A stretch of 41,513 nt of DNA, taken from assembly GCF_000219125.1 (NCBI RefSeq), contig NZ_AFGF01000098.1:1-41513 (forward strand), read 5' to 3'. Shown piece after piece: positions 24,262 through 41,056 of the stretch. The notes below the pieces were generated by a model that made no database searches, had not been told where the DNA came from, and saw nothing but the letters and a program-made list of their open reading frames with translations. The translations under genes and the position numbers were made by a program. The stretch's first letter is position 1. Every line of letters begins with the position of its first letter. This DNA comes from Acetonema longum DSM 6540. GTDB taxonomy: Bacteria > Bacillota > Negativicutes > Sporomusales > Acetonemataceae.

Positions 24262-24801
24262 TCAAAGAAAATACGCTTCTCCTCTTTTTATCTCCCGTAT
24301 ACGCAGACTGGGATGCGTTAAGTTTATGCCTTCTGCCCCGGGAAACTGTATTTTCCCAGGCAATCCATGGTCTGTAATATCAGACACTACCTGCAGGGCC
24401 TTTGTCGGACAGCTGAGAACACAAAGCGGCTGGCGCCCCATACTAATATGTTCTATACATAAATCGCATTTATCTACCTTTCCCGTCTGCGGGTTAAAAC
24501 GGGGTGCGCCAAAGGGACAGGCCTTAACACACCGGCTGCATCCCGTACAGCGCCCCGTCTGATGCACGACGACTCCGTCCCTTCTTTTAGTATAGCTTTT
24601 CTCGGGACAGACCCTGAAACATTCGGGATTTTCACAATGATTGCAGGACATGGATATAAAATAATGATGCTTTTTGCCCTTATCCACAACCAATTGTACC
24701 GTACGCAACGGAAACGGTTCGTCTTTTTCCTTCCGGCACGCTTTTTCACAGGCCCGGCAGCCGATGCAGCGGCTGGGATCGATAATAAAGCCAAATTGCA
24801 T
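24262..24801 (-). CDS. 4Fe-4S ferredoxin-type electron transfer subunit (DmsB/HycB-like)
   Basis: 179 residues with sixteen cysteines in four [4Fe-4S] motifs: C12-C15-C18-C22, C53-C56-C61-C65, C85-C88-C91-C95, and C112-C115-C127-C131, the standard pattern of the beta subunit of DMSO-reductase-family enzymes. No signal or membrane segment. It starts 21 bases after the catalytic subunit gene, so it is the electron-transfer partner of that enzyme. No membrane anchor subunit is encoded in this operon, so electrons must come from a soluble donor or a distant anchor. Confidence 0.88.
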   Translation of the reverse strand: MQFGFIIDPSRCIGCRACEKACRKEKDEPFPLRTVQLVVDKGKKHHYFISMSCNHCENPECFRVCPEKSYTKRRDGVVVHQTGRCTGCSRCVKACPFGAPRFNPQTGKVDKCDLCIEHISMGRQPLCVLSCPTKALQVVSDITDHGLPGKIQFPGAEGINLTHPSLRIREIKRGEAYFL

Positions 24802-24822
24802 GATATCCTTTATCCCTCCTTG

Positions 24823-26847
24823 TTACACAGGCATAATATTGACAAATGTATCATAGTAGGCTATGGCGGGACCACCGGCGGCCGCTCCCCCCATATCGGT
24901 TCTCAAGGGAGGAACCAGGCAATTTAAAGCAATTTCAACTGCCGGCGGCTGATAGATAACAACCGTTCCCTCCGGTACAAATGAAGTGATCCTGCAGGTC
25001 ACGGCTATTTCGCCCCGGTCGTTCATCAGGCGGCCGGTTTTTCCCTCAACGATTTTGCTTTTCCTGGCGGTTTCAGGATGAAGATAGGCGAAAATTCGCT
25101 CCCGGGGTTCACGCTCATGCGGCTGGGAATTGATCCCATCCCGGCTGTGCGGTGTTAAAAGCCGATAGGGATATTTATGCGTTCCACAGGCAGCCTGCGT
25201 GTATACCGGCAATGGCGGCAGCCCCGCTTTTTGCGCCTGCAGTGAAAACAGCTCATATTTTCCCGAGGGAGTAGAAAAAGCGCCCTGTTCCCATGGATTT
25301 CCCGGAAACTTGAAAGGGCGGGGTCCGTCCAGCAATTCCCATACGTCGGAAATCCCCAGCAGTTTGCACATTTCAGGCGCCATAATATCCGCAAGCCACT
25401 CTTTCTCCGTTTTGCCGGCAGGAAATGAATTCGATCCGGGCTTACGCTCATTCAGTTTTTGAACCAGAAGATTAACGATGTCAATATCGGACTTGCACTC
25501 CCCAACCGGTGAAATCGCAGGCTGATTAATGCCCAGCCAGTTATGCCAGTAGCTGGGGGTGAGGTCCCAGTGCTCCAGAAAAGTGGTCACCGGCAGAAAC
25601 AGGTCCGCTTCCCGGGCCGTAGCCGTGAGAAATAAATCCGCTGCGACAACCATATCCAACTGTTTTATATGTTTGCGGATCATATCGACTTCCGCGTTTT
25701 GGGTCAGCGGATTGGCATTCGCCAATATCAGCATTTTGATCGGAGGATTCTCTATTTTTGCCAAACCGGCGGCCAAGTCATGGGCAAAAATGACCCGTCC
25801 GGGATCTGTCAGTCCCTCGCACTCCTTCACATGCTTCATGAGAAGCCGGCTGATGGACGGATTGGCAAAGTAGACACCCCCTCCCTTTTCCCCAATATGC
25901 CCCGTAATGGCAGACAAGGCGTTAATGCATCTCACGTTTTGCCCGCCATTGATATGGCGTTGCACTCCCAGTCCAATCCAAAGCGCTGCCGGTTGGGCGG
26001 CATATTCTTCGGCCAGCCTTCGCATCAGCATTGAGGGTACCCCGGTGATATCCGACATCTTTTGCAGGTCTATAGTATCTAAATATTGAAAAAAATCAGC
26101 TCCGCCCACCGTATAGCTTTCAACAAAGCCATGGTTGACCAGGTTGTTTTCATAAAGATGCTTTGCCATTCCCAATGCCAAAGCCCCGTCGGACCCCGGC
26201 CGTATCTGCACATACAAATCCGCCTGCGCCGCAGTAGCCGTGTAGACCGGATCAATAACAACAAGCTTTGCCCCCAGTTCCCGCGCCTGATTGATATAAT
26301 CCATCTGGTGAATGGCGGTCCAGGCAGGATTGCTTCCCCAGCAAATGATATGTTTCGTTTGCCCCATAGCCGACGGGTCCAGCTGCATATAATCCCCGAC
26401 ATCGAAGTGCAAAGCGTCCAGCCCCGCACCCCAGCATATGGATCCCGCGGTGTTTGTCGCCCCCAGGCTATTGGCCAGCCAGCTCCATGCCCGATGCAGC
26501 AGGCTGATGTTTCCCGAGTTGCTATAACAGCAAATGGGCTCAAAAGAGCCGAATTGCGCAGAAAGACTCAGTATTTTTTCCGCCATGATGTCAACTGCCA
26601 CAGGCCAGTCAATGCGGATCCATCTTCCCGAACGCCGCGGCTGCTGCAGCATGGGATATAAAATACGTTCCTTATGATACAAAGACCGTATATAACTCTG
26701 CCCCCGGGCACATATATACCCTTTGGTATACCCGTGCTGCCGGTCTCCCTGAATCTGCCGGACTTTACCGTTTTCCACCCGGGAGATAAGCCCGCACGTG
26801 CTATAGCAATTACTCGGGCATACATGCCGAAACACTTCCGTCCGCAT
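24823..26847 (-). CDS. Molybdopterin oxidoreductase, catalytic subunit, no Tat signal
   Basis: 674 residues, bis-MGD (DMSO reductase) family. N-terminal [4Fe-4S] site C10-x3-C14-x3-C18-x27-C46 (ending ICARG). Further features: SNSGNISLLHRAWSWLANSLGATN, GSICWGAGLDAL (Cys is a candidate Mo ligand), HIICWGSNPAWT, VVIDPVYTATAAQADLYVQIRPGSDGALALGMAKHL, WIGLGVQRHINGGQNVRCINALSAITGHIGEKGGGVYF and AREADLFLPVTTFLEHWDLTPSYWHNWLGINQPAI; C-terminal MGD-binding domain near 570-674. There is no twin-arginine signal, so the enzyme is cytoplasmic. Substrate cannot be inferred. First gene of an operon with an Fe-S subunit, PucR regulator and TorD chaperone; ATG follows CGGAGGAACT. Confidence 0.88.
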   Translation of the reverse strand: MRTEVFRHVCPSNCYSTCGLISRVENGKVRQIQGDRQHGYTKGYICARGQSYIRSLYHKERILYPMLQQPRRSGRWIRIDWPVAVDIMAEKILSLSAQFGSFEPICCYSNSGNISLLHRAWSWLANSLGATNTAGSICWGAGLDALHFDVGDYMQLDPSAMGQTKHIICWGSNPAWTAIHQMDYINQARELGAKLVVIDPVYTATAAQADLYVQIRPGSDGALALGMAKHLYENNLVNHGFVESYTVGGADFFQYLDTIDLQKMSDITGVPSMLMRRLAEEYAAQPAALWIGLGVQRHINGGQNVRCINALSAITGHIGEKGGGVYFANPSISRLLMKHVKECEGLTDPGRVIFAHDLAAGLAKIENPPIKMLILANANPLTQNAEVDMIRKHIKQLDMVVAADLFLTATAREADLFLPVTTFLEHWDLTPSYWHNWLGINQPAISPVGECKSDIDIVNLLVQKLNERKPGSNSFPAGKTEKEWLADIMAPEMCKLLGISDVWELLDGPRPFKFPGNPWEQGAFSTPSGKYELFSLQAQKAGLPPLPVYTQAACGTHKYPYRLLTPHSRDGINSQPHEREPRERIFAYLHPETARKSKIVEGKTGRLMNDRGEIAVTCRITSFVPEGTVVIYQPPAVEIALNCLVPPLRTDMGGAAAGGPAIAYYDTFVNIMPV

Positions 26848-26958
26848 AGTTCCTCCGCGTTAATTCCTGTATTACAGCATCTCCTGTATAAATTATACAC
26901 TATTTACACAGTACCTTCTTACATAAATCTCCCCGCACAACAATCATCCATCATCAAT

Positions 26959-26993
26959 ATAAAAGTGTTTGCCTGTTACGCAAACACTTTTAT
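26959..26993 (-). terminator. dmsABC operon terminator
   Basis: Perfect 14-bp arms (ATAAAAGTGTTTGC and complement) with a 7-base loop, stem ending in T-rich TTTTAT on the minus strand. About 35 bases past the dmsC stop; separates dmsABC from the second molybdoenzyme operon. Confidence 0.75.
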
Positions 26994-27027
26994 AAGCATA
27001 TATAAGGATTTCACTGTCATAAAAGAG

Positions 27028-27867
27028 TTAAAATTTCCCGATAAAGGGTACGCCGATCCCATAAAACAGATATCGTCCGATAATGGCCGACAGCAGTATC
27101 ATCGCAAAGGTTCCCTGCAGCCAGGTCTTTGCATCCGCAGACCCCATCCTGTATTTTTTGTGAAACCGGAACATCGAGGCAATGCTGCCCACTGCCAATA
27201 GTTGTCCTGCTATAAACAGAGACATTTGATCATAAAGCAGTTTTATGCTTTGCTGCGCCAGACCTGCCCCGTTCACAAAAACCAGATATGCCGCCATGCC
27301 GGTTAACTGCAGCACGACAGACGCGGAAATGCCGGCCAGGGCCGCAGGCACAGTCGGCTGCTCCTGCTCTTGCGGCAATTGCCACAGCAGAACCGCATAG
27401 CCTATTAAGCCGAGGATGGCAGCCGTGGTATAAAAGGCAATGTGGGTATAGAACGTACTCCAGGCGGCCACTGCCGTGTAGATATAAGTACACGCCGTAC
27501 TGATCAGGCAGAGGGCCCCGGCAAGCGCTGCCGCCCATCCTGCCAGCCGGTTCATTCCTGCACTTGCCAGCCCCTGTTTTTCCAAAAAGTAACATACAAT
27601 AACCAGCCCGAAGAATCCGCCGCTGAAGAAAATTTCCCGGCTCAGCCATGACGTCCCTATATTGGCAACCGCTCCATAAGCAGCCAGCGGACTGCCCAGG
27701 TGCATCAGCGATGTCCCCATCGCAATTCCCATTAAAACGATGACCCAGCGTAAAATACTTGTTATTGCCAAGCGCCTTTCCCCGTTTAAAATCTGATGGG
27801 CGAGAAACAGTCCGATACTCGCCTGGGAAAGCAGTGTAAAGACTACTAAAGGCCATTCGTGTTTCAT
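27028..27867 (-). CDS. dmsC: DMSO reductase membrane anchor subunit DmsC
   Basis: 279 residues with eight predicted membrane helices. Family marks: an N-terminal HEWPLVVFTLLSQASIGLFL helix, SLMHLGSPLAAYGAVANIGTSWLSREIFF (the H-LG-P and S-W-L-S-R-E motifs of DmsC), and the C-terminal LL-AIIGRYLFYG. Anchors DmsAB to the membrane and oxidises menaquinol. ATG follows GGAGGCGGGAGC; 12 bases after dmsB. No anomalies in this gene. Confidence 0.9.
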   Translation of the reverse strand: MKHEWPLVVFTLLSQASIGLFLAHQILNGERRLAITSILRWVIVLMGIAMGTSLMHLGSPLAAYGAVANIGTSWLSREIFFSGGFFGLVIVCYFLEKQGLASAGMNRLAGWAAALAGALCLISTACTYIYTAVAAWSTFYTHIAFYTTAAILGLIGYAVLLWQLPQEQEQPTVPAALAGISASVVLQLTGMAAYLVFVNGAGLAQQSIKLLYDQMSLFIAGQLLAVGSIASMFRFHKKYRMGSADAKTWLQGTFAMILLSAIIGRYLFYGIGVPFIGKF

Positions 27868-27879
27868 GCTCCCGCCTCC

Positions 27880-28462
27880 TTAGCTCTTATCCGCTATCGC
27901 GTTTTTATGCGGCTTCATAATTAACGACGGCTTTGTGGAAGGTTTGGGCATGCCTTTGATATAATTTGTGCCGCCGTATTTTTGACGCAATTCCTCCACG
28001 GGTCCCACATCCAGCACCCGCATGGGACAAGCCGTCACGCAGGCAGGCTTCTTGCCTTCCGCCAGAAGGTCCCGGCACAAATCGCATTTTCCCGTTTTTC
28101 CCGTATCAGGATTGTATTGCGGTGCGCCGTAAGGGCAGCTCATAATGCAATAGCGGCAGCCGATGCACTTCTTGGGATCGACAAACACAATCCCGTCTTC
28201 CTTACGTTTTTGCATAGCGCCCGTGGGACAATTTTTGACGCATGCCGGTTCAGCGCAGTGATTACAGCTCATTGAAATCCAATAAGCGTAGATATCACCG
28301 GTCACTACCGCATTGCTTTCTATGTATCCCCCTCCGGCGTACTCGGTCACTTTCCGGAACAGTTGTCCAACCTTCAGGTTATTTTTATTCTTTACAAGCG
28401 ATTTGGCAAGTTGAACATCCCACACAATTCTCTTGTTGAAAATAGAAGCCAAGCTGGGCCAT
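27880..28462 (-). CDS. dmsB: DMSO reductase iron-sulfur subunit DmsB, frameshifted near the 5' end
   Basis: Electron-transfer subunit with four [4Fe-4S] clusters. The natural start is the ATG at 28462 (GGGGAGGAG nine bases upstream). That frame encodes the first cluster motif CVGCSTCQIAC but stops at 28385. From there the +1 frame continues with KVTEYAGGGYIESN and the remaining clusters: CNHCAEPACVKNC, CIGCRYCIMSC and CDLC...CVTAC, to 27880. The +1 frame can also be read from a TTG at 28452, but that product lacks the first four cysteines. Removing one A near 28388-28389 restores a 193-residue protein of normal family length. Either a sequencing indel or a real mutation. Confidence 0.88.
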
Positions 28463-28483
28463 TTTACTCACTCCTCCCCATCC

Positions 28484-30859
28484 TTACGCCTTGGTAATCT
28501 GAACAAGATTCGTGTGCTGCGGATTGCCGAATGCCAGCGGAGTAGGATGATATTTTGTGATGGCATTGGTGCATCCCCGCTGGTCAACGCCCTGGGCATC
28601 CGGATTCCACCACGCTCCCTGCGGTACCGATATCACACCCGGCATCATGCGAGGAGTAATTTTTACCGGCAGCATCATACTGCCGCGATCATTGTAAACC
28701 TTTACTTTCTCACCGTTTTGCAGCCCTCTGTCCGCCGCGTCCCGGGTATTGACCCAGACTTCCTGCGGAGCCGCCTCTTCCATCCAGCGAACATTATCAA
28801 AGGTCGAATGAACGCGGCGTTTGAAGTGATGGCCTATGCACTGCAGCGGATACTTGCCGCGCAGCGGGTCCGCCGGTCCTTCCCAGGCAGCGATATATTT
28901 CGGAATGGCAGGAATCTCTTTGGGTTTGTTCATGGCCCACAAGCGAGGTGAAAAAATCTCAATTTTGCCCGACGGCGTAGGAAAGGGATTATGTTCCGGG
29001 TCTTCAATTTGTTTTTGAAAGGCAATGCTGGGCTCTTGATATTGCCAGCGGTATACGCCTTTCGCCTTGAACTCCTCATAAGACGGGAAACCCGGGTTTG
29101 CCTTGCGCGTGTCGTCCACTATTTTACGCAGCCATTGCTCTAATGTTTTGCCTTCCGTAAATTTTTCTCTCAGACCTAATTTTTCGGCGAGATCGGAGAT
29201 CCAGTCATACCCATTGCGGCATTCAAATACCGTATCCACCGCTTTATTCATATACAGGATATAGTCGCCGTAGCCCCAGGGCGTAACAATGTCTTCCCGC
29301 TCCATCATATTGTCAGACGGCAGTAAAATATCGGCGAATTTAGCGCTGGCTGTCATGAAATGCTCGCTGGCCACAATACATTCCACCAGGCTTTCATCTT
29401 CCAATATCTTGGCGGTTCCGCCGCAATCCGAATGCTGGTTAATGAGACAATTTCCGGCGAGGTTATAAATCATCTTAATGTTGGTTGATAATTTTTTAAC
29501 GCCTTTTACCCCTTGTTCCGTTCCCATGTCTTTGCCATGCTGAATCGCATCCGGCCAAATATAGCAGGAGATCGAAGCCTTGCAAGGATTATTGACAGGG
29601 ATGGCGCCAATCTTTTGGCTGCGGGCCTGGGAAGCGTTTCCTGACGCCCAGCCGCCTTTTATGCCGACATTCCCGGTCATGGCCGCTAAAACAGTGCCGC
29701 TCCGGACAACCTGCTCGCCGTAAGCATGCCTTTGGGGACCATATCCCTGAATCAGGGCCCCCGGTTTCATCGTGGCATACTCCCGCGTCAGCTGTATAAT
29801 TTTATGGCGCGGGATTCCGGTGATCGTTTCTGCCCATTCAGGCGTTTTGGCAGTCTTATCGTCGCCTGATCCCATTACATAGCTCCGGTAAGAATTCCCC
29901 GGCGGAATATGATCAGGCATATGTTCTTCATCAAAGCCCAGGCAGTATCTGTCGAGAAAAGGCTGATCCTGCAGATTTTCACTGATCATGACATACGCCA
30001 TGGCATCCAGCAGCGCACTGTCGGTTGTAGGCCGGATGGGAATCCATTCATCGGCCAGCCCTATGGCGGTATTGGAATACATCGGATCGATGACCACGAT
30101 CTTTGCCCCGGCTTCCTTCGCCTGTTTTAAGTAATAGGCGGTGTTTGTCCCATGGATCGTTTCCGCCGGGTTCCATCCCAGAAGAATAATCAGCTTGGAA
30201 TCGGCCCAGGTCTCGCGGCTGCTGCCGGTAGCCGTCGTTCCATAGGTATAGGGAGTGGCCATGGACGTGCAGGCAGTGCTGTAAGTCCCATAGTAGTTTA
30301 AATACCCGCCGTACATGCCCAGCAGACGGGACATCCATACTCTCTCAGCCACTTTGCCGGCAATGCCGCTGCCGTATTGCATATAGATCGCTTCCGGTCC
30401 ATATTGCTGCATAATACGCTGAGTGTGGCCGGCAATGATCGTTAATGCTTCATCCCAGGTGATGCGTTCAAATTTGCCTTCGCCGCGCTTGCCTACCCGT
30501 TTCATCGGATATTTCAACCGATCCGGATGATAAAGCCGGTCACGGTAAGAGCGGCATCGCAAACATCCTCTGAGCTGCGGCATCTGAGGCGTATCCGGGA
30601 TATCGTCGTCCGTGGATATACGGGTAATGATCCCATCGCTGACATGCGCCTTGATGCGGCACCTTCCCCCGCAATTATGGGAGCCGGCAGTCAGTACAAC
30701 CATTTCCGGCACTCTTGCTTCCGACATTTTCGCCATCCCGGTAAAAATATCTTCGGAAAGCATTCCTAAAGCACTGAGCCCCCCGACTGTTGCTGCACTG
30801 CATGTAAAAAATTTGCGCCGTGAAATCCGTTGGACCCAAAAATCTGTTTTATCTCCCAC
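28484..30859 (-). CDS. dmsA: DMSO reductase-type catalytic subunit DmsA
   Basis: 791 residues from GTG at 30859. Twin-arginine signal SRRKFF at 13-18 followed by a hydrophobic stretch: exported by Tat. Close to E. coli DmsA over its length: RLKYPMKRVGKRGEGKFERITWDEA, NYYGTYSTA (Ser of YSTA aligns with the Mo ligand), DEWIPIRPTTDSALLDAMAYVM, QGYGPQRHAYGE, AGNCLINQHSD, GHHFKRRVHSTFDNV, TPRMMPGVISVPQGAW. The N-terminal cluster site reads SHNCGGRC with C63, C67 and C99 kept, but Gly59 where E. coli has the first Cys. The frame is open to 31060; the GTG is chosen because AAAGGA lies ten bases upstream and the signal peptide starts there. Reduces DMSO or a related S/N-oxide. Confidence 0.9.
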   Translation of the reverse strand: MGDKTDFWVQRISRRKFFTCSAATVGGLSALGMLSEDIFTGMAKMSEARVPEMVVLTAGSHNCGGRCRIKAHVSDGIITRISTDDDIPDTPQMPQLRGCLRCRSYRDRLYHPDRLKYPMKRVGKRGEGKFERITWDEALTIIAGHTQRIMQQYGPEAIYMQYGSGIAGKVAERVWMSRLLGMYGGYLNYYGTYSTACTSMATPYTYGTTATGSSRETWADSKLIILLGWNPAETIHGTNTAYYLKQAKEAGAKIVVIDPMYSNTAIGLADEWIPIRPTTDSALLDAMAYVMISENLQDQPFLDRYCLGFDEEHMPDHIPPGNSYRSYVMGSGDDKTAKTPEWAETITGIPRHKIIQLTREYATMKPGALIQGYGPQRHAYGEQVVRSGTVLAAMTGNVGIKGGWASGNASQARSQKIGAIPVNNPCKASISCYIWPDAIQHGKDMGTEQGVKGVKKLSTNIKMIYNLAGNCLINQHSDCGGTAKILEDESLVECIVASEHFMTASAKFADILLPSDNMMEREDIVTPWGYGDYILYMNKAVDTVFECRNGYDWISDLAEKLGLREKFTEGKTLEQWLRKIVDDTRKANPGFPSYEEFKAKGVYRWQYQEPSIAFQKQIEDPEHNPFPTPSGKIEIFSPRLWAMNKPKEIPAIPKYIAAWEGPADPLRGKYPLQCIGHHFKRRVHSTFDNVRWMEEAAPQEVWVNTRDAADRGLQNGEKVKVYNDRGSMMLPVKITPRMMPGVISVPQGAWWNPDAQGVDQRGCTNAITKYHPTPLAFGNPQHTNLVQITKA

Positions 30860-31383
30860 ATGAGCCACATCCTTTCCGCTTCGTATTTTTCTAAGATTCA
30901 AGCAACTATTCATATATAAAGAATATTTTATTTGCCGGACGCAAGTCCTCTTGGATAAAATGCAGAAATATCCCCGCCTTGATTGTAGAAATGAACAATC
31001 GCGCGCTGAAAGCGCTGCGCAGGAACGGAAGCATGCAGTGATGATTTCTTTTTCTGTCACGGCTACATGATCTTCTTATACGAAAAAGGGACCGGGCGCT
31101 GCTTTTCAACCAAACCCGCTTCTGGATTAATGGCCTGGAATCACACACGTTCATCTGATAGATTGTTAATATTTAACAGGAATTTTATTGCAGGCATTGC
31201 CAAAAACGGCGAAAACGGCAGGATCATGCAGCTAATTGATCATGGCCTTCCGCCGGCGATAGACGGAAAGCATCTAAATAGTCAAAAAAATTAATGCATT
31301 TGATAAAAAAATATGTCATAATAGTCACCATAATACCATCTACATAATAAAGTGCATGATCTCTTATGAGAGAACTTAATAAA
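30860..31383. other. Divergent intergenic region between dmsA and the c-di-GMP riboswitch
   Basis: Short open frames here are not convincing as genes. A 15-bp palindrome TGTTAA-TAT-TTAACA at 31164-31178 resembles CRP/FNR or Rex-type half sites but with non-standard spacing. No clear promoter could be assigned for either the dms operon or the riboswitch transcript; A/T-rich -10-like boxes lie at 31319-31348. Confidence 0.4.
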
Positions 31384-31451
31384 CACGGCAAACTTATTGA
31401 AAAATAAGGACGCAAAGCTATGGGTCTACGTACTTTAAGTATATGGCTGCC
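31384..31451 (+). promoter_or_regulatory. Cyclic-di-GMP-I (GEMM-I) riboswitch
   Basis: The class I c-di-GMP aptamer is recognised from its conserved blocks: CACGGCAAAC, a stem CTTATT/AATAAG closed by the GAAA tetraloop (31399-31402), GGACGCAAAGC, GGGTCTAC, and a 3' GGCTGCC. GGCA (31387-31390) pairs with TGCC (31448-31451) to close the aptamer. The 3' GCC is also the start of an intrinsic terminator stem, so aptamer and terminator compete. The simplest reading is an ON switch: c-di-GMP stabilises the aptamer and lets polymerase through into the exopolysaccharide operon. The direction is inference. Confidence 0.93.
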
Positions 31452-31480
31452 AGGTTGCAAAACTGCAACCTGGCTTTTTT
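31449..31480 (+). terminator. Riboswitch-controlled intrinsic terminator
   Basis: Perfect 11-bp arms GCCAGGTTGCA (31449-31459) and TGCAACCTGGC (31464-31474), loop AAAC, then TTTTTT. It shares its first bases with the c-di-GMP aptamer and lies 80 bases before the first gene. Confidence 0.92.
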
Positions 31481-31559: not shown

Positions 31560-32045
31560 GTGAAAAAGTTTTTACTATTACCGTTTGCCATGGCAACGGT
31601 AATCAGCAGTCTGCCCGCAGGGAATCCATGCCGTGACGAACTGGCCGGGGCTGAGCCGTGGACGGGGAACATAGCATATGCAAGCGGTTTTTCGGACGCC
31701 GGCGACCCTGCGGTTGCATCCCGGGAGAATATGGAAGAAAACAAAGCCAGGATTTCTTACGAGCTGGCGAAAATTACGGCCGATATCGTATCCGTCCCGA
31801 CCGCCGATACGGAAAATTTCAAAAGGACAGTTGCTTACGCCAATGCCCGGATTACAGCAACAGTGATGCCGCTGCTGCCCGACAGTCAGAAAAAGGATTT
31901 TGCCAATGAAATGGCCCAGCTTACCACGGCGATCATGAATGACCCGAATCCGGATGTCGAAATAGCCAAAACGGAATTAACCTATAAAATTGCCCTGCTG
32001 ACAACAAAAATCATCACCAATGCCGGTAAAGGCAAATGCCGGTAA
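31560..32045 (+). CDS. Secreted helical N-terminal part of the outer-membrane barrel gene (frame broken)
   Basis: 161 residues in this frame. A Sec signal peptide (KKFLLLPFAMATVISSLPAG) is followed by an alpha-helical region with repeated ELAKITADIV / ELTYKIALLTTKI-type helices and no recognised family. Start is GTG with GGGAGGG six bases upstream. The frame ends at 32045 only because a perfect 16-bp tandem duplication (32019-32034, 32035-32050) shifts it by one. With one copy it runs straight into the barrel frame that follows, giving a 493-residue protein: signal, helical domain, Pro/Ala-rich linker, beta-barrel. First gene of the exopolysaccharide operon; probably part of the export channel. 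As it stands, a truncated soluble periplasmic product is expected. Confidence 0.75.
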   Translation: MKKFLLLPFAMATVISSLPAGNPCRDELAGAEPWTGNIAYASGFSDAGDPAVASRENMEENKARISYELAKITADIVSVPTADTENFKRTVAYANARITATVMPLLPDSQKKDFANEMAQLTTAIMNDPNPDVEIAKTELTYKIALLTTKIITNAGKGKCR

Positions 32046-32050
32046 AGGCA
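32019..32050 (+). repeat. Perfect 16-bp tandem duplication causing a frameshift
   Basis: AATGCCGGTAAAGGCA is repeated head to tail without a gap. Since 16 is not a multiple of three, it moves translation out of the barrel frame into a stop at 32045; one copy restores the full-length frame. Either a reversible switch, a fresh mutation or an assembly artefact. Confidence 0.97.
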
Positions 32051-33057
32051 ACAGCGGTGCTGCTCCGGCGGCACCGCAGCCTCGACGTAATGGCAAAACG
32101 CCGCGCCAGGCAGCCGATGCCGGCGCTCCCCCCGCAACAAGCTCAGGGGACATCGACCCGGAAACCCACGCGGCTCTGATCCATGAATTAATGCAGACTG
32201 GCCAGGACAGCCGCCGGGCCGGCGATAAAATCAATACCGCCGGCGAAGTCCGCTATCATTATGCCCTGAACAGCGGCGCCGGCCTTTGGGGTCAGGATAT
32301 ATCCGGCTTCCGCGCCCGCCTGGCCTTTGATGCTGAGACCCGCCCGGATTGGCGCATCCACGGCATGCTGGAGGGCAAAAGAAATATCCTCAATTATGAT
32401 AACCATGCCGGCCTGCCTTATCTTTTCCTGGAAGGGAAATTAGGCCGGTCGCTGCTGCGGGCAGGGTCTTTCAGCCACCTTATGGCTGAAGGAAATATTT
32501 ACGACAGCGGTTTTGACGGCATTCAGCTTAATTTCGGCGAACCGGTGAAATACAGGCTGAGTTACGGGGAAACCGGGCATTCAAAGGAAACGGCGATAGC
32601 CACGGCACGCTACGAGGATTTTGATTACAACCTGGAAGCCGGCGTCTATCACTATCGGACAGACACAGATCAGAAAAATACGATCCGGTCTCTGGGCGGA
32701 AATTACAATTTCAGCAATTTTGGCGTAGGAGCCACGATTTTGAGCGCAACGCTGCAAGACAGCCAGGGAGATCATGACGGCTATGTGTTGAGTTTTAACT
32801 ACGGCGGTTTAAAAACCTGGCGTCCGGGCACCTACAGCCTGTTTGCCAAATATTACAATCAGCCGCAGGGAACCTATATTATGCATGGAATGAACGGCCC
32901 CGGCAGCCGGATGCAAGGATTTAAGGGCTACGGCTTAGGAATGGGCTATACGGTGGCGGCGAATTTTGTGGCAGGCCTCGAATATTACGACCTGTCAGAA
33001 AAAGCCTCCGGCGATAGCGCCAGAACCTGGTGGAGTTACCTCATGCAATATTTTTAA
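32020..33057 (+). CDS. Outer-membrane beta-barrel (porin-like) C-terminal part, exopolysaccharide export
   Basis: 345 residues if read from the ATG at 32020, which has no Shine-Dalgarno. So it is best seen as the C-terminal part of the 31560 gene. A Pro/Ala-rich linker (~1-45) is followed by alternating amphipathic strands rich in Tyr, Gly and Asn (FRARLAFDAETRPDWRIHGMLEGKR, LFLEGKLGRSLLRAGSFSHLM, YRLSYGETGHSKETAIATARYEDF) ending in LEYYDLSEKA...SYLMQYF with a terminal Phe, the Bam-recognised beta-signal. Predicted outer-membrane barrel. By position with a synthase and deacetylases it is likely the polymer exit pore, filling the role PgaA or AlgE has elsewhere, though no sequence relation is claimed. 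Confidence 0.72.
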   Translation: MPVKANAGKGNSGAAPAAPQPRRNGKTPRQAADAGAPPATSSGDIDPETHAALIHELMQTGQDSRRAGDKINTAGEVRYHYALNSGAGLWGQDISGFRARLAFDAETRPDWRIHGMLEGKRNILNYDNHAGLPYLFLEGKLGRSLLRAGSFSHLMAEGNIYDSGFDGIQLNFGEPVKYRLSYGETGHSKETAIATARYEDFDYNLEAGVYHYRTDTDQKNTIRSLGGNYNFSNFGVGATILSATLQDSQGDHDGYVLSFNYGGLKTWRPGTYSLFAKYYNQPQGTYIMHGMNGPGSRMQGFKGYGLGMGYTVAANFVAGLEYYDLSEKASGDSARTWWSYLMQYF

Positions 33058-33084
33058 ATACATTAGCAGGTGAAATCGGAATAT

Positions 33085-34407
33085 ATGGAAATTTTATTAA
33101 AATTACAGGCAAAAGAAGCTTTGCTGGCAGTTGTAGGCCTTGGCTATGTAGGGTTGCCGCTGGCGGTTGCGTTTGCCGGAAAAGTCCGGACCCTTGGCTT
33201 TGATATTAATCCGGAAAAAGTGGCTGTTTATCAGCAGGGAATTGATCCTACCCATGAAGTCGAAACGGCGAAGCTCCAAAGCACGACACTGGAATTTACT
33301 ACTGATCCAGCCCGGCTGAAAGAAGCCCGCGTGATCATTGTTGCAGTGCCGACGCCGGTCAATGGAGATAAAACCCCGGATTTAACGTCCGTTGTCAGCG
33401 CCAGTGCACTGATCGGGGAAAATCTGACGCCGGGCAGTATTGTCGTTTTTGAATCGACGGTGTATCCCGGGGTTACCGAGGATATTTGCATTCCGGTGTT
33501 AGAGTCGAAATCAGGCCTGGCATGCGGCAAAGATTTCAGGGTAGCCTATTCACCGGAAAGAATCAATCCCGGCGATAAAGTGCAAAGACTGGAAAATATC
33601 CGGAAGATTGTTGCCGCGACAGATGAGGAAACATTGGAAACGGTTGCGGCGATTTATGAACTGATTATTCAGGCGGGAGTATATAAAGCAGCCGGCATTA
33701 AGGTGGCGGAAGCGGCAAAGCTGGCTGAAAATGCCCAGAGAGACATTAACATTGCTTTTATGAATGAACTGGCCCTGGCATTCGACCGCATGAAAATCAA
33801 CACCAAAGATGTAATCGACGCCATGAACACCAAATGGAATGCCCTGCGGTTTCAACCCGGCCTGGTAGGCGGGCATTGCATCGGCGTGGACCCGTATTAC
33901 TTCATTTATCAGTTCCAGATGCTGGGGTATCACTCGCAGCTTATTGCCGCCGGCAGAAAAATTAACGATGCCATGGCCGGCTTTGTCGCTGACAACATTA
34001 TAAAAAAAGTGATTCAAGCCAATAAAAATCTAAAAAGAGCCAACATTTATATTATGGGAATTACCTTTAAAGAAAATTGCCCGGATATGCGCAATTCAAA
34101 GGCCGTCGACGTCTGCAGGCACCTTGCCGGATATGGAATTCAGGTAAAAGTGGCTGACCCGGTTGTTGATCCCGCAGAATTTAAAAAAGAATACTGCCTG
34201 CCGCTTGTCAGGCTGGAAGAGGTCAAAAATGCCGATTGCCTGGTATTTTTAGTTGCCCATCAACACTTCCGGGAACTACAGCCGGCGAATCTGGCCGGCA
34301 TGTTCAAGCAGCCAGGGCGGCAAACCCGTCATGTCATTATTGATATCAAGCATATATTTGAGCGTAAAGTAATGGAAGAAAGCGGTTATTCCTACTGGAG
34401 CCTTTAA
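33085..34407 (+). CDS. Nucleotide-sugar dehydrogenase (UDP-N-acetylhexosamine 6-dehydrogenase type)
   Basis: 440 residues from ATG 33085 (AGGTGA eleven bases upstream); a GTG at 33070 has no SD. Oxidises C6 of a UDP-sugar with NAD. Rossmann motif VVGLGYVGLPLAVAF, VPTPVNGDKTPDLTSV, FESTVYPGVTED, YSPERINPGDK, the catalytic region VGGHCIGVDPYY (Cys 265 from this ATG), and GITFKENCPDMRNSKAVDV. The VYPGVTE and SPERINPGDK wording and the KWN-x-x-x-F-x-PGLVGGHC stretch resemble the TviB/WbpO/CapL branch, which act on UDP-GlcNAc/GalNAc, more than the UDP-glucose enzymes. It would supply an N-acetylhexosaminuronate (or uronate) donor for the polymer; substrate not proven. Confidence 0.85.
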   Translation: MEILLKLQAKEALLAVVGLGYVGLPLAVAFAGKVRTLGFDINPEKVAVYQQGIDPTHEVETAKLQSTTLEFTTDPARLKEARVIIVAVPTPVNGDKTPDLTSVVSASALIGENLTPGSIVVFESTVYPGVTEDICIPVLESKSGLACGKDFRVAYSPERINPGDKVQRLENIRKIVAATDEETLETVAAIYELIIQAGVYKAAGIKVAEAAKLAENAQRDINIAFMNELALAFDRMKINTKDVIDAMNTKWNALRFQPGLVGGHCIGVDPYYFIYQFQMLGYHSQLIAAGRKINDAMAGFVADNIIKKVIQANKNLKRANIYIMGITFKENCPDMRNSKAVDVCRHLAGYGIQVKVADPVVDPAEFKKEYCLPLVRLEEVKNADCLVFLVAHQHFRELQPANLAGMFKQPGRQTRHVIIDIKHIFERKVMEESGYSYWSL

Positions 34408-34426
34408 GTACAAGGCGGTGATATGC

Positions 34427-35785
34427 GTGAAATATAAAACAATACTGCTGGTGCCGGTTCTGCTGCTGTTGGGCGTTTATCTGACCGGAATCCCGTTTAT
34501 CGGACTATTTTCACTTCTGCCAGAACAGGCTGCCGCTTTATTTTCCATCCGTACAGTTCAGGCGACAGCTGCCGATAACCAGGCACAGGAAATCAGGGTG
34601 ATTCCTACTACCGAGCCGGCGCTCTCCTTTACCTTCGGCGGCTTAAGCAGGGAGGCGGCAGTGAGCGATGTGCTCCGGCGGCTCCGCGGTCTGGGCATCA
34701 GGGCGACGTTTTTCGTCATGGAACCGGAAATCCGGCGGCATCCGGCAACGCTGCGGAAAATTATCGCCGACGGGCACGAAATCGGCATTGCCATACGGCC
34801 GAAAGACGGGGAAGCGCCGGACGAAACCCGCCGGATGATTTTAGCTACCGGCAGGCTGCTGCAGGAGCAGTTCGGGGTGACCACCGGCCTGGTAAAACAG
34901 CCCTGGGGAGCCGTGTCGGACACGACAAAAGAAGCGGTTGCCGGTCTGGGATATAGGCTGATTGGCCAATCCGTCAATGTGGTGCAAAGCAGGCATAAGG
35001 ACTATACGGCCGCCGACCAGGTGATGGCCGAGATTTTCGGCAAATTTGCCCTGTCTTTATCCCGGGGGCAGATCGTCCATTTCAGAATGGACTATTATAG
35101 CAATGAGCGTCTGGCTGGCGATCTGGTCGAAACCATTAAATGGCGCAAAGTGGATAACATTGCCTATGCACCCTCCTACGACAATCCCGCCAATAACCCG
35201 GCCAATGATTCGCAGTATGCGATAAAGCCGGTCGGCGAGCTGCTCAGGCACAGCCGGTTTATCTATCAATATCCGGCCGATCCGGCGACCATTCCGGGCG
35301 GCTTACGCTACGACGGTCCCAGTGTAAGAATCACAGGGCGCAATGTAATGGCCGAAGCCGCCAAGCGGTATATCGGCCATAAAGATGTCAATTACGAAGA
35401 CCGTATGCTAGGCTTCTCGAAAATGGAGACCCGCCGCCTCGATACCAGCGGCTTGATCCATACGGAGGACAGGGTTATTTTTCTCACTTTTGACGACTGG
35501 GAACAGACGCCGCGATCAATAAGCTGCTGTATGTTCTGCGCAAGCACCGGGTTACGGCGACGTTTTTCATTACGACCAATAACGTATTATATAATCCGAA
35601 CCTGCTCCGGGCGATTGCCATGGAAGGCCATGAAATCGCCAGCCATTCCGATCAGCATCTGCCGCTGGTCATTCGCGATCCGCGAACCGGCCGGCTGGTA
35701 CAAACCCAGGATAAAGACGAATATCGCGCCGACCTTGCCGCAGCCTACCGAAAATTGCGGGCTGTCACCGGAGATGTTCTTGTGA
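34427..35785 (+). CDS. Tandem NodB-type polysaccharide deacetylase, N-terminal part (frameshifted)
   Basis: Starts at GTG 34427 with AAGGCGG eight bases upstream; a signal-anchor helix occupies residues ~5-22. The first NodB-like domain has LSFTFGG in place of TFDD and no His-x-x-x-His, so it is degenerate and probably inactive. A linker then leads to a second NodB domain beginning VIFLTFDDW. At 35499-35501 the sequence has three G where four are needed; the frame then runs off to a chance stop at 35785. Adding one base joins it with the next frame into a 588-residue protein that carries a full catalytic set. Removes N-acetyl groups from a surface polysaccharide, in the periplasm or at the inner membrane. 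Confidence 0.8.
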   Translation: MKYKTILLVPVLLLLGVYLTGIPFIGLFSLLPEQAAALFSIRTVQATAADNQAQEIRVIPTTEPALSFTFGGLSREAAVSDVLRRLRGLGIRATFFVMEPEIRRHPATLRKIIADGHEIGIAIRPKDGEAPDETRRMILATGRLLQEQFGVTTGLVKQPWGAVSDTTKEAVAGLGYRLIGQSVNVVQSRHKDYTAADQVMAEIFGKFALSLSRGQIVHFRMDYYSNERLAGDLVETIKWRKVDNIAYAPSYDNPANNPANDSQYAIKPVGELLRHSRFIYQYPADPATIPGGLRYDGPSVRITGRNVMAEAAKRYIGHKDVNYEDRMLGFSKMETRRLDTSGLIHTEDRVIFLTFDDWEQTPRSISCCMFCASTGLRRRFSLRPITYYIIRTCSGRLPWKAMKSPAIPISICRWSFAIREPAGWYKPRIKTNIAPTLPQPTENCGLSPEMFL

Positions 35786-36183
35786 ACGGCCGGCCGGCCC
35801 TGACCCGTTTTTTCCGCCCACCGACGCTGGCGATCAGCAAAACGGGGCTGGAAGCAGCCTTTGACGCCGGCTGCGAATACATTGTCGCCGGCTCGGGCAA
35901 CACCTACGACTATACGGCGGAAAATGCGCCGCAGCTTGTGAGAACAATGAAAGACGTGGTTTATACGGAAAAAGGGGAACTAAAAAGAGGCGCGGTTTTA
36001 ATCATGCATATGAGCGACAGTTCGGCATACACGGCAATGGCTTTGGACATTCTGCTGACCGCCAATGCCGCCAGGACGGATTCCGATCCTGCCAAATTCA
36101 AAGCCGGCCGGTTATCTGATTATTTATCCGCCGGGTATTCGCAGATCAGCCGGAAGCAATCGCTGCAATTAAACAGGCTGTGA
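35620..36183 (+). CDS. C-terminal part of the tandem NodB deacetylase (other frame)
   Basis: Continuation of the 34427 gene in the -1 frame. The coding signal begins right after the lost base at 35501 (GTDAAINKLLYVLRKHRVTATFF), so the ATG at 35620 is only the first internal Met. It carries the second-domain catalytic motifs: SHSDQH (two metal His), RFFRPP, and the C-terminal ILMHMS. Together with TFDD upstream, all core NodB motifs are present, so this domain would be active if the frame were whole. Ends at 36183, 90 bases before the synthase gene. Confidence 0.78.
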   Translation: MEGHEIASHSDQHLPLVIRDPRTGRLVQTQDKDEYRADLAAAYRKLRAVTGDVLVNGRPALTRFFRPPTLAISKTGLEAAFDAGCEYIVAGSGNTYDYTAENAPQLVRTMKDVVYTEKGELKRGAVLIMHMSDSSAYTAMALDILLTANAARTDSDPAKFKAGRLSDYLSAGYSQISRKQSLQLNRL

Positions 36184-36273
36184 ACAGGGTTTGGCCTGTT
36201 CTACCGGTCCAGTCGCGGGTGCCTGGTTGAATAAGCTGCAGCAGGCAGCTGGAAAATGGCGGGAATGTGGATC

Positions 36274-38122
36274 ATGCGGATAAGAAACAAAGTATTCCGG
36301 CAAAAAAATAAAAAAAGAAACCGATGTCCTGCTGCTCGACAGGCCGGACCGCAGACGGCTCGCCAAAGTTCCCGACCGGGAAGGACTGCGGACAAACGCC
36401 GACAGGCGCCGTCTGAAAACAGACACCGCCCCGGACGATGCGGCAGGCTTGATCGTCAGCCAAACGATGGGCAGAAGATATCTGATTGATTATGACGTTT
36501 CCCTCCGTTATCTTGCCGCCGGCAAGAGTGTTGCCTGTCCGGTAAAAGGAATCGATATTTCCACGACCGGCATGCTGCTGGAAGTCCCCCCGGAAGTCGG
36601 GCAAGACTTGCGGCAGGCGGAGAAAATCAGCCTGAAGTTTGTCATCGCGCCCGGCACCATGCCGGAAGGATATGAAATGAAAGTCCGTATGGCGGCTAAA
36701 TTTATCCGCCTGAGTGAAAGCCCGGACGGGAAAACGCGGTGCGGCGTGGAATTTGCCCAATCGCTGGCTCAGTATGCGGCCAGGAGGAAAAGCCGCTATC
36801 TGCTGCCGGCGGCCGCTTTCCTGCTGTTTGTGATTACCGCCTGCATCCTGCTGCTGCGGGCGGAAAGCGTACTGTATTTTAAATTTAATCAAACCCTGTA
36901 TCTGTACAGCATCATTGCGGCTACTTTTTTGCTGACCCGTTACCTGTTCGCCTCCTTTTACCGCCCTGTTCCCATCGACAAAGACTTTACGCCCGGAGTT
37001 TCCATCATCGTGCCCTGTTTCAATGAGGAAACCTGGATACAAAAAACGATTGCAGGCTGCCTGAATCAGGATTATCCCAGCGATAAGCTGGAAGTGATCA
37101 TCGTCGACGACCACTCCGACGACCAATCGGTTGCGAGAATCAAAGAAATCGTGGAAAAGCTGAAAACCCAGGAGCCATATTACCGGGTCGGCGACAGGCT
37201 GCACTATCTCTGCCAGGAAAAGAACGCCGGCAAACGGGAGGCCCTGGCGCGGGGAACGTTGATGGCCAGGCATGAACTGGTGGTGTTTGTGGATTCGGAC
37301 AGCTTTTTAGAACCGTTTGCCATCCGCAACGTCGTCCAGCCGTTCAAAGACGCCAAAACGGGCGGGGTCACCGGCCGGACCGACGTGGCCAACACCTATA
37401 CCAACGCCCTGACGAAAATGCAGGCTGTGCGCTATTTTATCGCCTTTCGCATCATGAAAGCGGCGGAAAGCTATTTTGACGCCGTCACCTGTTTATCCGG
37501 CCCTCTCTCCTGTTACAGAAAAGCTCTGGTGGTCAGGCATCTGGACAGCTGGCTGCAGCAGACATTTCTCGGCGAGAAAGCCACCTTCGGCGATGACCGC
37601 AGCATGACCAATTTTATCTTGCGCGGCAACCGGACCGTTTATCAGGATACGGCCGTCTGCCATACCATCGTCCCCAACACCTATCGTGTTTTTTTGAAAC
37701 AGCAGATGCGCTGGAAGCGCTCCTGGCTCAGGGAATCGCTGATTGCCGCCGGCTTCATGTGGCGCAAAGAACCGTTTATGGCCCTATCCTTTTATGCAGG
37801 GCTGCTCATCCCGGTCCTGGCGCCGGTGACCGTTGTGTATAACCTGGTGTACATTCCCCTGGTCCACCGGGTGTTTCCGCTGACCTTTGCGGCCGGCCTT
37901 CTTTTGATGGCCATGCTCATGAGCATGGCGCAACTGCTGCTGCGGAAAAGCTCCACCTGGATTTTCGGCCTGTGGTTCTGCCTGTATTACGAGGCCGTGC
38001 TGTTGTGGCAGATGCCGGTTGCCTGGGTGACCTTCTGGAAAACTACCTGGGGAACGCGCATGACGCCCGCCGACATCATGGAGCGGTTAAAAAAGAACCG
38101 CCGGCAGCAAAAGAAGGCATAA
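36274..38122 (+). CDS. PilZ domain fused to a hyaluronan-synthase/NodC-like GT2 synthase
   Basis: Processive membrane glycosyltransferase with an N-terminal c-di-GMP receptor domain. Counting from the first start codon in the main frame (TTG 36449, no good SD): PilZ ~8-110 with the DxSxxG motif DISTTG (36-41); two membrane helices ~118-170; GT2 core with DD 220-221, DSD 282-284, GDDR 381-384 and QQMRW 418-422; C-terminal helices from ~440. GDDRSMTNF, GNRTVYQDTAVCHTIVP and QQMRWKRSWLRES are close to HasA/NodC. The partner RxxxR of PilZ is not clear (GRRYLIDYD). The main frame is open upstream to 36284 with a sensible Asp/Arg-rich sequence but no start; an ATG at 36274 joins it through A-tracts at 36302-36316 if one A is removed, giving 615 residues. 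Confidence 0.88.
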
Positions 38123-38126
38123 GACA

Positions 38127-39998
38127 ATGACAACAGCCGATGAGAAATTTACCGCCCGCAAAAACAAAAAGAAACGAATCCGTACAGCCGGGCAGATCCT
38201 CTTCCTCCTGGCAGTGGCTGCCTTTTGCACCAACGCTTTATTTACCTTAACCCCCTATATTTCCTATACCGGACAGCCGGTGAAATTTTCCGGGGACAAG
38301 GGCTTTATCGCGCTGGCCTATTTCGGCGTGGAACGGACCGGCACCCAGGCGTTGATCGGAACAGACCGTTTGCGGGAACATCTGCAGGCGCTGAAAAAGC
38401 TGGGCTATGTCACGATCAGCCAGCAGGATATTGCGGACTACTACCGGTCAGGCAAGGAACTGCCGGAAAAATCACTGTTTCTGATCTTTGAAGACGGCCG
38501 GCGGGATACAGCCATTTTCGCCCAGAAAATCCTCGAAGAATTGAACTTTAAAGCAACCATGCTGACCTATGCGGCAAATTTCGCAAAACAGGATCCTAAA
38601 TTTTTAACGCCGGACGAGTTGAAAAATCTGGAGAAAACAAGTTTTTGGGAACTGGGCACCAATGGATACCGTCTGGCATTTATCAACGTATTCGACCGGT
38701 ACGGCAATTATCTGGGAGAACTGAACCCATTGCAGCATGCCAAAGTTGCGCCATATTTAGGACGCAAATACAATCACTATTTAATGGATTATATCCGCGA
38801 CGAATACGGTATTCCCAAAGAAAGCCACACCCGGATGAAAGACCGGATTGCCTATGATTATGAAGCGCTGGGGAATATTTACGCAAGGTCGGTAGGGTAT
38901 ATACCCGGAACGCATATCTTAATGCATTCCAATACCGGCAGCTTCGGCAATAACGCTGCAGTAAGCGTTGTGAACAAACACTGGATAGAAGCGCTGTTTA
39001 CGATGAACTTCAACTGGGAAGGATTCTGTTTCAATCAGCGCAGCAGCAGCATTTACGACCTGACCAGAATGCAGCCCCAGGCCTATTGGTCTGCCAATCA
39101 TTTGCTGATGCGGATCCAATACGATATCCATCAGCCGGCGGATTTTATCAAAGGCGATCTGGATAAGCAAAACGCCTGGGAAACGCTAAAAGGAGCAGCG
39201 GAATTGAAAGAAGAAACAATTATTTTAACCTCGTTGCCAAACGATAAAGGGCTGCTGCGATTAAAAAACAGCAACGACTTTGCCGACCTGAAGCTGGCCG
39301 TGCGGCTCAGGGGAAACAAACTGGGCCTGCAGAAAATCTATCTCAGAACCGGCGAAAAATTCAGCCGCTTCCTGGCCGTATCGATACAGGATAATATCCT
39401 CTATATTACCGAAAAAACCGGCGGCAGCGAAACGGAATTATGCAAGCTAAACCTGGATCAACACGATGGCAAGACCGTCCAGTCCGTTCCGGAGGATAAA
39501 AAAGCGGCGGAAATGCGGGCTCTGGAAGCCTTCCTGCAGTATGCCGGGTCTGCCGGGCAAGCCGGGCTTTACTCCAAGCGCCTGCAGGCTAAAAGCCTTG
39601 AAGACGTCCCCACCGTAGCCCAGGGCGCGGCGGCCTATATTCCTGACCTCAGCGCGCATGAAAAAGGCGACCGGACGCTGTCGCTGTCTCTCGCGGGAGA
39701 TAAAATCAGCGTGCAAGTGGACGGCCAGGCTGCCGTAACCGATTTACAACTATCCAATACGGCCGCAGGCTCCGTTTATCTGGAATCGGCCTGGAGCGGC
39801 TATGGCTGGAGTCAAAGAAATCCGGCCGACGATGTATACGACGGCGTGTTTGAAAAGCTGGTGATCACCGAAACCACGGGCCGTCTGGCAGAGGAAAAGA
39901 TTTTATTCGACAGCGGGCTGCAAGGCTGGGATGCCGTCAAATTCGCCGTGAAGAAATATTGGCAGGCGCTCATCAACTGGTTTATTGTCAATTTTTAA
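38127..39998 (+). CDS. Membrane-anchored degenerate NodB-fold protein with C-terminal beta domain
   Basis: 623 residues. Basic N-terminus, one signal-anchor helix (~20-42), then a PgaB-like polysaccharide deacetylase fold: GFIALAYFGVERTG, LKKLGYVTISQQDIADYY, and SLFLIFEDGRRDTA where TFDD is expected, with Glu121-Asp122 left. FWELGTNGYRL stands where the family has the His-x-x-x-His motif, so metal binding is probably lost or altered. HILMHSNTG is present at the last motif. Residues ~350-600 form a beta-rich region (LamG/jelly-roll-like: KLAVRLRGNKLGLQKIYLRTGE, YLESAWSGYGW) suggestive of glycan binding. Starts four bases after the synthase stop, so tightly coupled to it. Likely a polymer-binding or modifying partner rather than a classical deacetylase. 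Confidence 0.72.
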   Translation: MTTADEKFTARKNKKKRIRTAGQILFLLAVAAFCTNALFTLTPYISYTGQPVKFSGDKGFIALAYFGVERTGTQALIGTDRLREHLQALKKLGYVTISQQDIADYYRSGKELPEKSLFLIFEDGRRDTAIFAQKILEELNFKATMLTYAANFAKQDPKFLTPDELKNLEKTSFWELGTNGYRLAFINVFDRYGNYLGELNPLQHAKVAPYLGRKYNHYLMDYIRDEYGIPKESHTRMKDRIAYDYEALGNIYARSVGYIPGTHILMHSNTGSFGNNAAVSVVNKHWIEALFTMNFNWEGFCFNQRSSSIYDLTRMQPQAYWSANHLLMRIQYDIHQPADFIKGDLDKQNAWETLKGAAELKEETIILTSLPNDKGLLRLKNSNDFADLKLAVRLRGNKLGLQKIYLRTGEKFSRFLAVSIQDNILYITEKTGGSETELCKLNLDQHDGKTVQSVPEDKKAAEMRALEAFLQYAGSAGQAGLYSKRLQAKSLEDVPTVAQGAAAYIPDLSAHEKGDRTLSLSLAGDKISVQVDGQAAVTDLQLSNTAAGSVYLESAWSGYGWSQRNPADDVYDGVFEKLVITETTGRLAEEKILFDSGLQGWDAVKFAVKKYWQALINWFIVNF

Positions 39999-40024
39999 CC
40001 ATTTACAGCCGCGGGAGGAAGTCC

Positions 40025-41056
40025 ATGCGAAAGATATTGGGTGAAATGCTCAAAGCAATTGTATTTGCCTCTGCCGTTTTCAGCCTGGTCAGCTGCTTTT
40101 ACGGCCTCTCCGCCGGCAAAGCGGACGCCAAAGAGCCAGCCAGGCGGTCGGCCTGGCTGGCTTACTGGGATTTGGCCGCCGGCGAAAAAGATTTGCACAA
40201 GCTGGAAAAAAGACTGACCAGCCTCTCTTATTTCGCTGCCTATTTTGACAAGGACGACCGCCTGTTCATCCCTCCCGCGCTGATCGACAAAAAAAAGGAA
40301 CTGCAAAAAACCGGCAAAAAACATGAAGCGTATCTTACCTTTGTCAATGATAAGCAAAATCCCGACGGCTCGGCGGCCATAAAAGACACGGCAGTCCTCC
40401 GCAGGCTGTTTGCCGATGCTGCTTCGATGGAAAAGCACATTGACGAAATCCTGGCGCTGGCTTTGCAGGGCGGCTTTGACGGCATTGAAATTGATTATGA
40501 GCGAATATGGAAAGACCAGGCTGTGGGGCAGTCTTTCCTGCGATTTACCCGCTCGCTTTACCGCAAGACGCTGCAAAACAACCTGCAGCTCAGGATCGTG
40601 CTGGAACCGGGTGCGCCGTTTGCCGGCACGACTTTTACCGAGGGGCCGGAATATGTCGTCATGCTGTATAACCTGCATGGCCTGCACAGCGGCCCCGGCC
40701 CAAAGGCCGACCGGAGCTTTATCGAAAAAACGCTGCAGCGGATGCAGTCCCTGCCCGGCGCCAGGTCGGTTGCCTTTGCCACCGGCGGCTGCCTCTGGGG
40801 CGATAACGGCGAAAAACGCCTGCTGACAGAGGTGGAGGCGAGAACACTGGCCACGCTTCATGGCGCGGCAGCCACCCGGGATGCGGCGAGCCGGAGCGTT
40901 GCATTCGCTTTCCGGGAGAACGGCGTTTCCTACCAGGTGTGGTATGCCGACGCCAAAACGCTGCAATATTGGACCGGCATCGCCGCCAGGCAGGGAGCGG
41001 CAAATATCAGCCTGTGGCGGCTGGGCGGCAACGCCGACATAGGAAAAATCCGCTAG
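40025..41056 (+). CDS. GH18-type glycosidase lipoprotein
   Basis: 343 residues from ATG 40025 (GGGAGGAAG upstream); an in-frame ATG at 39959 lies in the previous gene and is rejected. Lipobox LVSC (21-24) after a hydrophobic signal predicts a lipoprotein. The GH18 barrel shows AWLAYWDLA at strand one and FDGIEIDYE (151-159), a DxxDxDxE motif in which the second Asp is Glu155 while catalytic Glu159 is kept. YVVMLYNLHG and ISLWRLGGN match later strands (substrate Tyr and Trp). GH18 enzymes cut beta-1,4 GlcNAc polymers, which fits a synthase of the NodC/HasA class; it could trim the polymer or clear it from the periplasm. Last gene of the operon. Confidence 0.8.
   Translation: MRKILGEMLKAIVFASAVFSLVSCFYGLSAGKADAKEPARRSAWLAYWDLAAGEKDLHKLEKRLTSLSYFAAYFDKDDRLFIPPALIDKKKELQKTGKKHEAYLTFVNDKQNPDGSAAIKDTAVLRRLFADAASMEKHIDEILALALQGGFDGIEIDYERIWKDQAVGQSFLRFTRSLYRKTLQNNLQLRIVLEPGAPFAGTTFTEGPEYVVMLYNLHGLHSGPGPKADRSFIEKTLQRMQSLPGARSVAFATGGCLWGDNGEKRLLTEVEARTLATLHGAAATRDAASRSVAFAFRENGVSYQVWYADAKTLQYWTGIAARQGAANISLWRLGGNADIGKIR

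Follow-up and report, generated by a model that had tools for sequence, protein, structure and literature searches.

A 16-bp tandem duplication splits a porin-like outer-membrane gene in a frame-broken putative exopolysaccharide operon of Acetonema longum

The stretch analysed here, referred to as the window, comprises 41,513 bases and represents contig 98 of the draft assembly of Acetonema longum DSM 6540 (4.32 Mb in 295 contigs, the shortest of 214 bp). It contains an operon headed by a c-di-GMP-I riboswitch, in which the genes follow one another in the order barrel, dehydrogenase, deacetylase, PilZ-GT2, PgaB-like and GH18-like (Table 1). This order is kept in relatives whose contigs extend far enough, the exceptions being locus L048, with no dehydrogenase match at that place, and locus L047, with two deacetylase copies; the riboswitch lies upstream of the orthologous gene in all seven of the relatives' loci that were scanned for it. 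Read from sequence, these features support the assignment of the operon to a c-di-GMP-controlled exopolysaccharide system, and the gene neighbourhood together with the protein architecture suggests that the polymer would be exported by the barrel. A limited literature search found no published study of this operon. On the other strand (24262-31060) the operon adjoins two molybdopterin oxidoreductase modules, DMSO-reductase-like and with Fe-S and DmsC-like subunits.

Table 1. Features of the operon and of the tandem repeat, in positions of the window
Feature	Position	Strand	Evidence or remark
c-di-GMP-I riboswitch (RF01051), operon head	31377..31462	+	cmscan 78.3 bits, E 7.1e-14
ORF1, 161 aa: 5' part of outer-membrane gene, signal peptide and helical domain	31560..32045	+	
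Repeat copy 1, AATGCCGGTAAAGGCA	32019..32034	+	Perfect 16-mer
ORF2, 345 aa: linker and 16-strand barrel	32020..33057	+	First ATG inside copy 1
Repeat copy 2, AATGCCGGTAAAGGCA	32035..32050	+	Perfect 16-mer; match extends 1 base, to 32051
UDP-sugar 6-dehydrogenase (TviB-like), intact	33070..34407	+	NDP-sugDHase TIGR03026, 397.7 bits; no frame break
Multidomain polysaccharide deacetylase, frame-broken near 35500-35506	34418..36183	+	Homology and coding model
PilZ-GT2 synthase, probable frame break	36256..38122	+	Near A-rich runs at ~36300
Weak PgaB-like / deacetylase-like protein, intact	38127..39998	+	
GH18-like protein, intact	39959..41056	+	PF00704 E 1.8e-6, below its cut-off

The outer-membrane gene is interrupted by a tandem duplication of AATGCCGGTAAAGGCA, the sole exact tandem in the window with a unit of at least 10 bp. 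Resampling the window 200 times under a first-order Markov model gave no exact tandem with a unit of at least 14 bp, and the longest one, of 13 bp, was seen once. Exact tandems with units of at least 14 bp number only two in 803,973 unmasked bases of this genome, and the one described here is the only one seen to split a conserved gene. The other, likewise an exact 16-bp unit (L082:8565-8596), is probably intergenic, since the longest stop-free frame running through it is only 75 codons; its surroundings are REP-like, apparently intergenic sequence with GGGGACGG motifs. No further exact copy of the 16-mer that could serve as a recombination partner was found elsewhere in the genome, where one copy with a mismatch is present. 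A local DNA hairpin was considered as a duplication hotspot and rejected, the folding z-score being only -1.38.

The repeat (two copies of a 16-bp unit, not a multiple of three) lies inside the coding region, and its effect can be followed by frame arithmetic. ORF1 reads copy 1, and ORF2 reads copy 2, in the same phase 0; continued into copy 2, the ORF1 frame gives AAA TGC CGG TAA, the terminal TAA being the ORF1 stop. An allele with one copy is predicted to form one uninterrupted frame that counts 494 codons with its stop, that is, 493 aa. The first-pass annotation had reported two adjacent perfect 16-mers at 32019-32050 that break an otherwise continuous frame of 493 codons, restorable by exact removal of one copy; the positions were reproduced, the match being one base longer, and the arithmetic agrees on both the break and its repair as far as the frame of this gene is concerned. 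Because the stop codon sits within copy 2, all alleles with two or more copies would be OFF, and the one-copy allele is no longer a repeat, therefore only the OFF-to-ON change is templated.

The same annotation had read the interrupted gene as encoding a signal, a helical domain, a linker and a barrel, an architecture which is recovered in AlphaFold2 models of the intact orthologue from locus L033 and, as regards the barrel, of the window's own ORF2. In the former (mean pLDDT 66.8) an N-terminal helix is followed by four helices at residues 44-142, a low-confidence linker at 145-216 (pLDDT below 50) and 16 strands at 220-495; ORF2 was likewise modelled with 16 strands, its residues 1-67 being polar and of low confidence. 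The best fold match of the barrel is OmpM1 of Veillonella (8bys; VIA-align Z 25.9, rmsd 2.6 over 274 residues, 19% identity), which clearly exceeds the next porins (Z 20.5). For the barrel, neither Pfam nor NCBIfam gave a family above its cut-off, in the window's pieces or in the L033 orthologue, and a PDB sequence search with the family profile returned one designed helical repeat only. As for a paralogue that might back up the barrel, the genome offered only a partial match at 25%.

The predicted protein therefore resembles OmpM of the Negativicutes in its 16-strand porin-type barrel fold, but differs from it at the N-terminus, where OmpM carries a wall-tethering SLH domain: Pfam scans of the L033 orthologue and of the window's pieces showed no SLH domain, and the barrel is preceded instead by a helical bundle, or by TPRs in the Sporomusa orthologue L004. 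The location of the gene inside an exopolysaccharide operon is a further difference. With the PgaA/BcsC-type exporters of synthase-dependent exopolysaccharides it shares the operon logic (a PilZ GT2, deacetylases and a weak PgaB match) and, in the L004 orthologue, the TPR-plus-barrel form, whereas the barrel described here has no sequence-family match and the window's pieces gave no TPRs in the Pfam scan. PgaA and BcsC were absent among the fold matches listed, an absence that does not exclude either.

Orthologues were compared in 18 named loci from Pelosinus, Sporomusa, Propionispora, Anaerospora, Lucifera and MAGs. In every one of them the outer-membrane gene is a single open frame, with products of 344-1135 aa (470-534 aa where the helical domain is present, 344-366 aa where it is absent and 1085-1135 aa in Sporomusa), and none of the 18 genes contains an exact tandem unit longer than 9 bp, hence the window holds the broken form and the repeat tract is not kept in relatives. 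Homologues of ORF1 and ORF2 share one frame in 16 of the loci, the remaining two, L036 and L047, having the short form without a helical domain. No relative with two genes was encountered in this comparison, which the first-pass annotation had proposed, and its one-gene reading is thereby borne out. The break itself falls just past the conserved helical domain, inside the linker, which varies among relatives.

The barrel gene is not the only one affected. The deacetylase changes frame near position 35500, as seen by homology and independently by the coding model, its two halves lying in one frame in all 16 relatives that hold the gene. The window's deacetylase also has no in-frame counterpart of the N-terminal deacetylase domain present in the L033 orthologue, a protein of 882 aa with three deacetylase stretches (L033:12282-14930); other relatives seem to show a comparable gap, roughly 1 kb long. 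In the PilZ-GT gene the 55 open codons of the main frame that precede TTG 36449 include no ATG, GTG or TTG, while in 16 of 16 relatives an in-frame start is found 53-73 codons upstream of the corresponding point. A leader resembling the start of the relatives' genes occurs in a different frame at ATG 36256; the coding model, independently of this comparison, places a jump at 36290. The sequence thus points to a probable third frame break in the operon, which is graded only as probable because the leader is variable among relatives and because the homology scan passed the gene. The deacetylase break sits at a run of G and the PilZ-GT region at runs of A. The shortfall in identity with relatives is similar for broken and intact operon genes (3-7 points), and since both are about equally diverged from relatives, the breaks, if real, look recent.

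Whether such breaks are frequent in this genome can be assessed with a homology-based frame-break scan, for which the proteins of two related genomes and of the named loci were used as references and which made 197 genes of the Acetonema genome (G000) checkable. Frame breaks were detected in three of these: two of the six checkable operon genes, and a single one among the 191 genes outside the operon (one-sided Fisher p 0.0023). When the barrel gene, through which the operon was ascertained, is left out, the comparison becomes 1/5 vs 1/191 (p 0.05) and the clustering borderline. The same scan gave 4/221 genes and 3/160 genes with a frame break in the control genomes G024 and G031, and 7/147 in the named loci, all seven of the latter arising from the use of the window's own broken deacetylase as a query. 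The single break outside the operon (L104:8908-8917) lies beside a run of six T and is likely a homopolymer error or a mutation. In the part of the window outside the operon one gene was checkable by homology, and the coding model gave no jump there. With loose settings the coding-model scan reported 78 jumps in 804 kb, compared with 11 and 9 per 200 kb in controls, mostly start/stop noise; with a strict filter seven jumps were retained, compared with none and one in controls. The genome is not generally error-ridden. Systematic duplication by the assembler was also considered and rejected, as exact units of at least 12 bp number three in 804 kb, compared with 11 in 992 kb and six in 595 kb in two related genomes.

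On balance, we lean towards the explanation that a recent 16-bp duplication mutation is one of several lesions in an exopolysaccharide operon that has been inactivated in the sequenced strain. The duplication would have arisen in the unconserved linker of the porin-like outer-membrane gene and shifted the frame by +1, running it into a stop within the second copy. Only a short helical fragment would then be produced and secreted; translation from ATG 32020, should it take place, would yield a barrel that lacks a signal peptide and is unable to arrive at the outer membrane. At least two, and probably three, frame lesions would have accumulated in the c-di-GMP-controlled operon, perhaps through relaxed selection or laboratory propagation; in Bacillus subtilis, according to the available part of PMC7642357, biofilm traits are lost within a week of laboratory propagation. 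The breaks are taken here to be real mutations and not consensus errors, and a true loss of function is favoured, because they cluster in one dispensable operon of a genome that is otherwise nearly free of breaks. Inactivated need not mean irreversible, since the duplication can revert exactly. Real breaks would mean that the sequenced strain is unable to operate a conserved exopolysaccharide operon, which matters to anyone who takes it as a model for the envelope of diderm Firmicutes or for biofilm formation.

The main rival to this loss of function, in our judgement rather unlikely, is an error of assembly or consensus, by which the cell would have a single copy, the second having been made in assembly, and the other two breaks would be homopolymer miscalls. 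Such an origin is suggested by the fragmentation of the draft and by the type of data: a 454 FLX/Newbler assembly of Acetonema longum with more than 20-fold coverage is in print (available part of PMC2667538), and the genome sequence is probably this assembly. As 454 data favour homopolymer errors, the deacetylase and PilZ-GT breaks, at their G and A runs, may be miscalls, and the location of two of the three lesions in homopolymer-like runs, where 454 errors could occur, is one of the points that speak against the preferred explanation. An exact 16-bp duplication, however, is not an error of the homopolymer type, and 33 bp would be spanned by 454 reads of ~241 bases; such duplications are not rife, with no second exact unit of at least 14 bp seen to interrupt a conserved gene over 804 kb, and frame breaks elsewhere in the genome are rare. 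If the breaks nevertheless turn out to be errors of the consensus, the reference has to be corrected at two or three named sites.

It is less probable again that the repeat serves reversible phase variation of the type known for pneumococcal capsules, in which precise loss of one copy would turn the exporter ON and a rare new duplication would turn it OFF. Reversible sequence duplications occur in the pneumococcal capsule genes cap3A, cap8E and tts (Waite 2001 and 2003, as cited in the available part of PMC4243769) and reversible homopolymer frameshifts have been reported in kpsC of E. coli (available part of PMC13410964), and given these precedents reversion here is mechanically possible. As in cap3A, cap8E and tts, so far as that source describes them, the duplication is exact, lies within an open reading frame for a surface polysaccharide and would restore the frame on loss of one copy, but here further operon genes are broken and only one allele is known. 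In carrying a tandem repeat that breaks the frame of a surface-associated gene, the locus also recalls the contingency loci based on simple sequence repeats; these differ from the present case, in which there are only two copies of a 16-bp unit that is not conserved in relatives and the repeat is not present in both the ON and the OFF state, only one copy being in frame. The first-pass annotation had gone further and proposed a reversible on/off switch of polymer export, which the results do not support: switching would be asymmetric, the ON state being repeat-free, a comparable repeat occurs in none of the 18 orthologues, and export would probably remain blocked after one copy is lost, because the deacetylase is broken and PilZ-GT very probably so. 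With at least one neighbouring operon gene broken too, ordinary loss of function is preferred to a working switch. A bolder version, that the culture was caught in the OFF state of a duplication-driven, reversible switch acting on the outer-membrane channel of an exopolysaccharide system under c-di-GMP-riboswitch control in a diderm Firmicute, the deacetylase and PilZ lesions being further reversible or compensating hits under selection in culture against the polymer, appears more doubtful still.

That ORF1 and ORF2 are two real genes, one for a small helical protein that is secreted and the other for a barrel protein with its own start at ATG 32020, is rejected as highly improbable: the start lies within a 26-base overlap with the 3' end of ORF1 and the short forms in L036 and L047 do exist without a helical domain, but the relatives' short forms, where read, still begin with MKK-type leaders, whereas ORF2 begins with its polar segment and has neither a signal peptide nor a Shine-Dalgarno-like sequence upstream, and all 18 orthologous loci are single frames. 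What is conserved among the named relatives is the combination of a c-di-GMP-I riboswitch, an OmpM-like barrel with a helical or TPR front, a PilZ-GT2 synthase and deacetylases. The front of the barrel is itself variable, consisting of a helical bundle, of nothing extra or, in Sporomusa, of a long N-terminal extension, shown to contain TPRs in L004; loci noted for this variation are L004, L034, L035, L037, L039 and L048.
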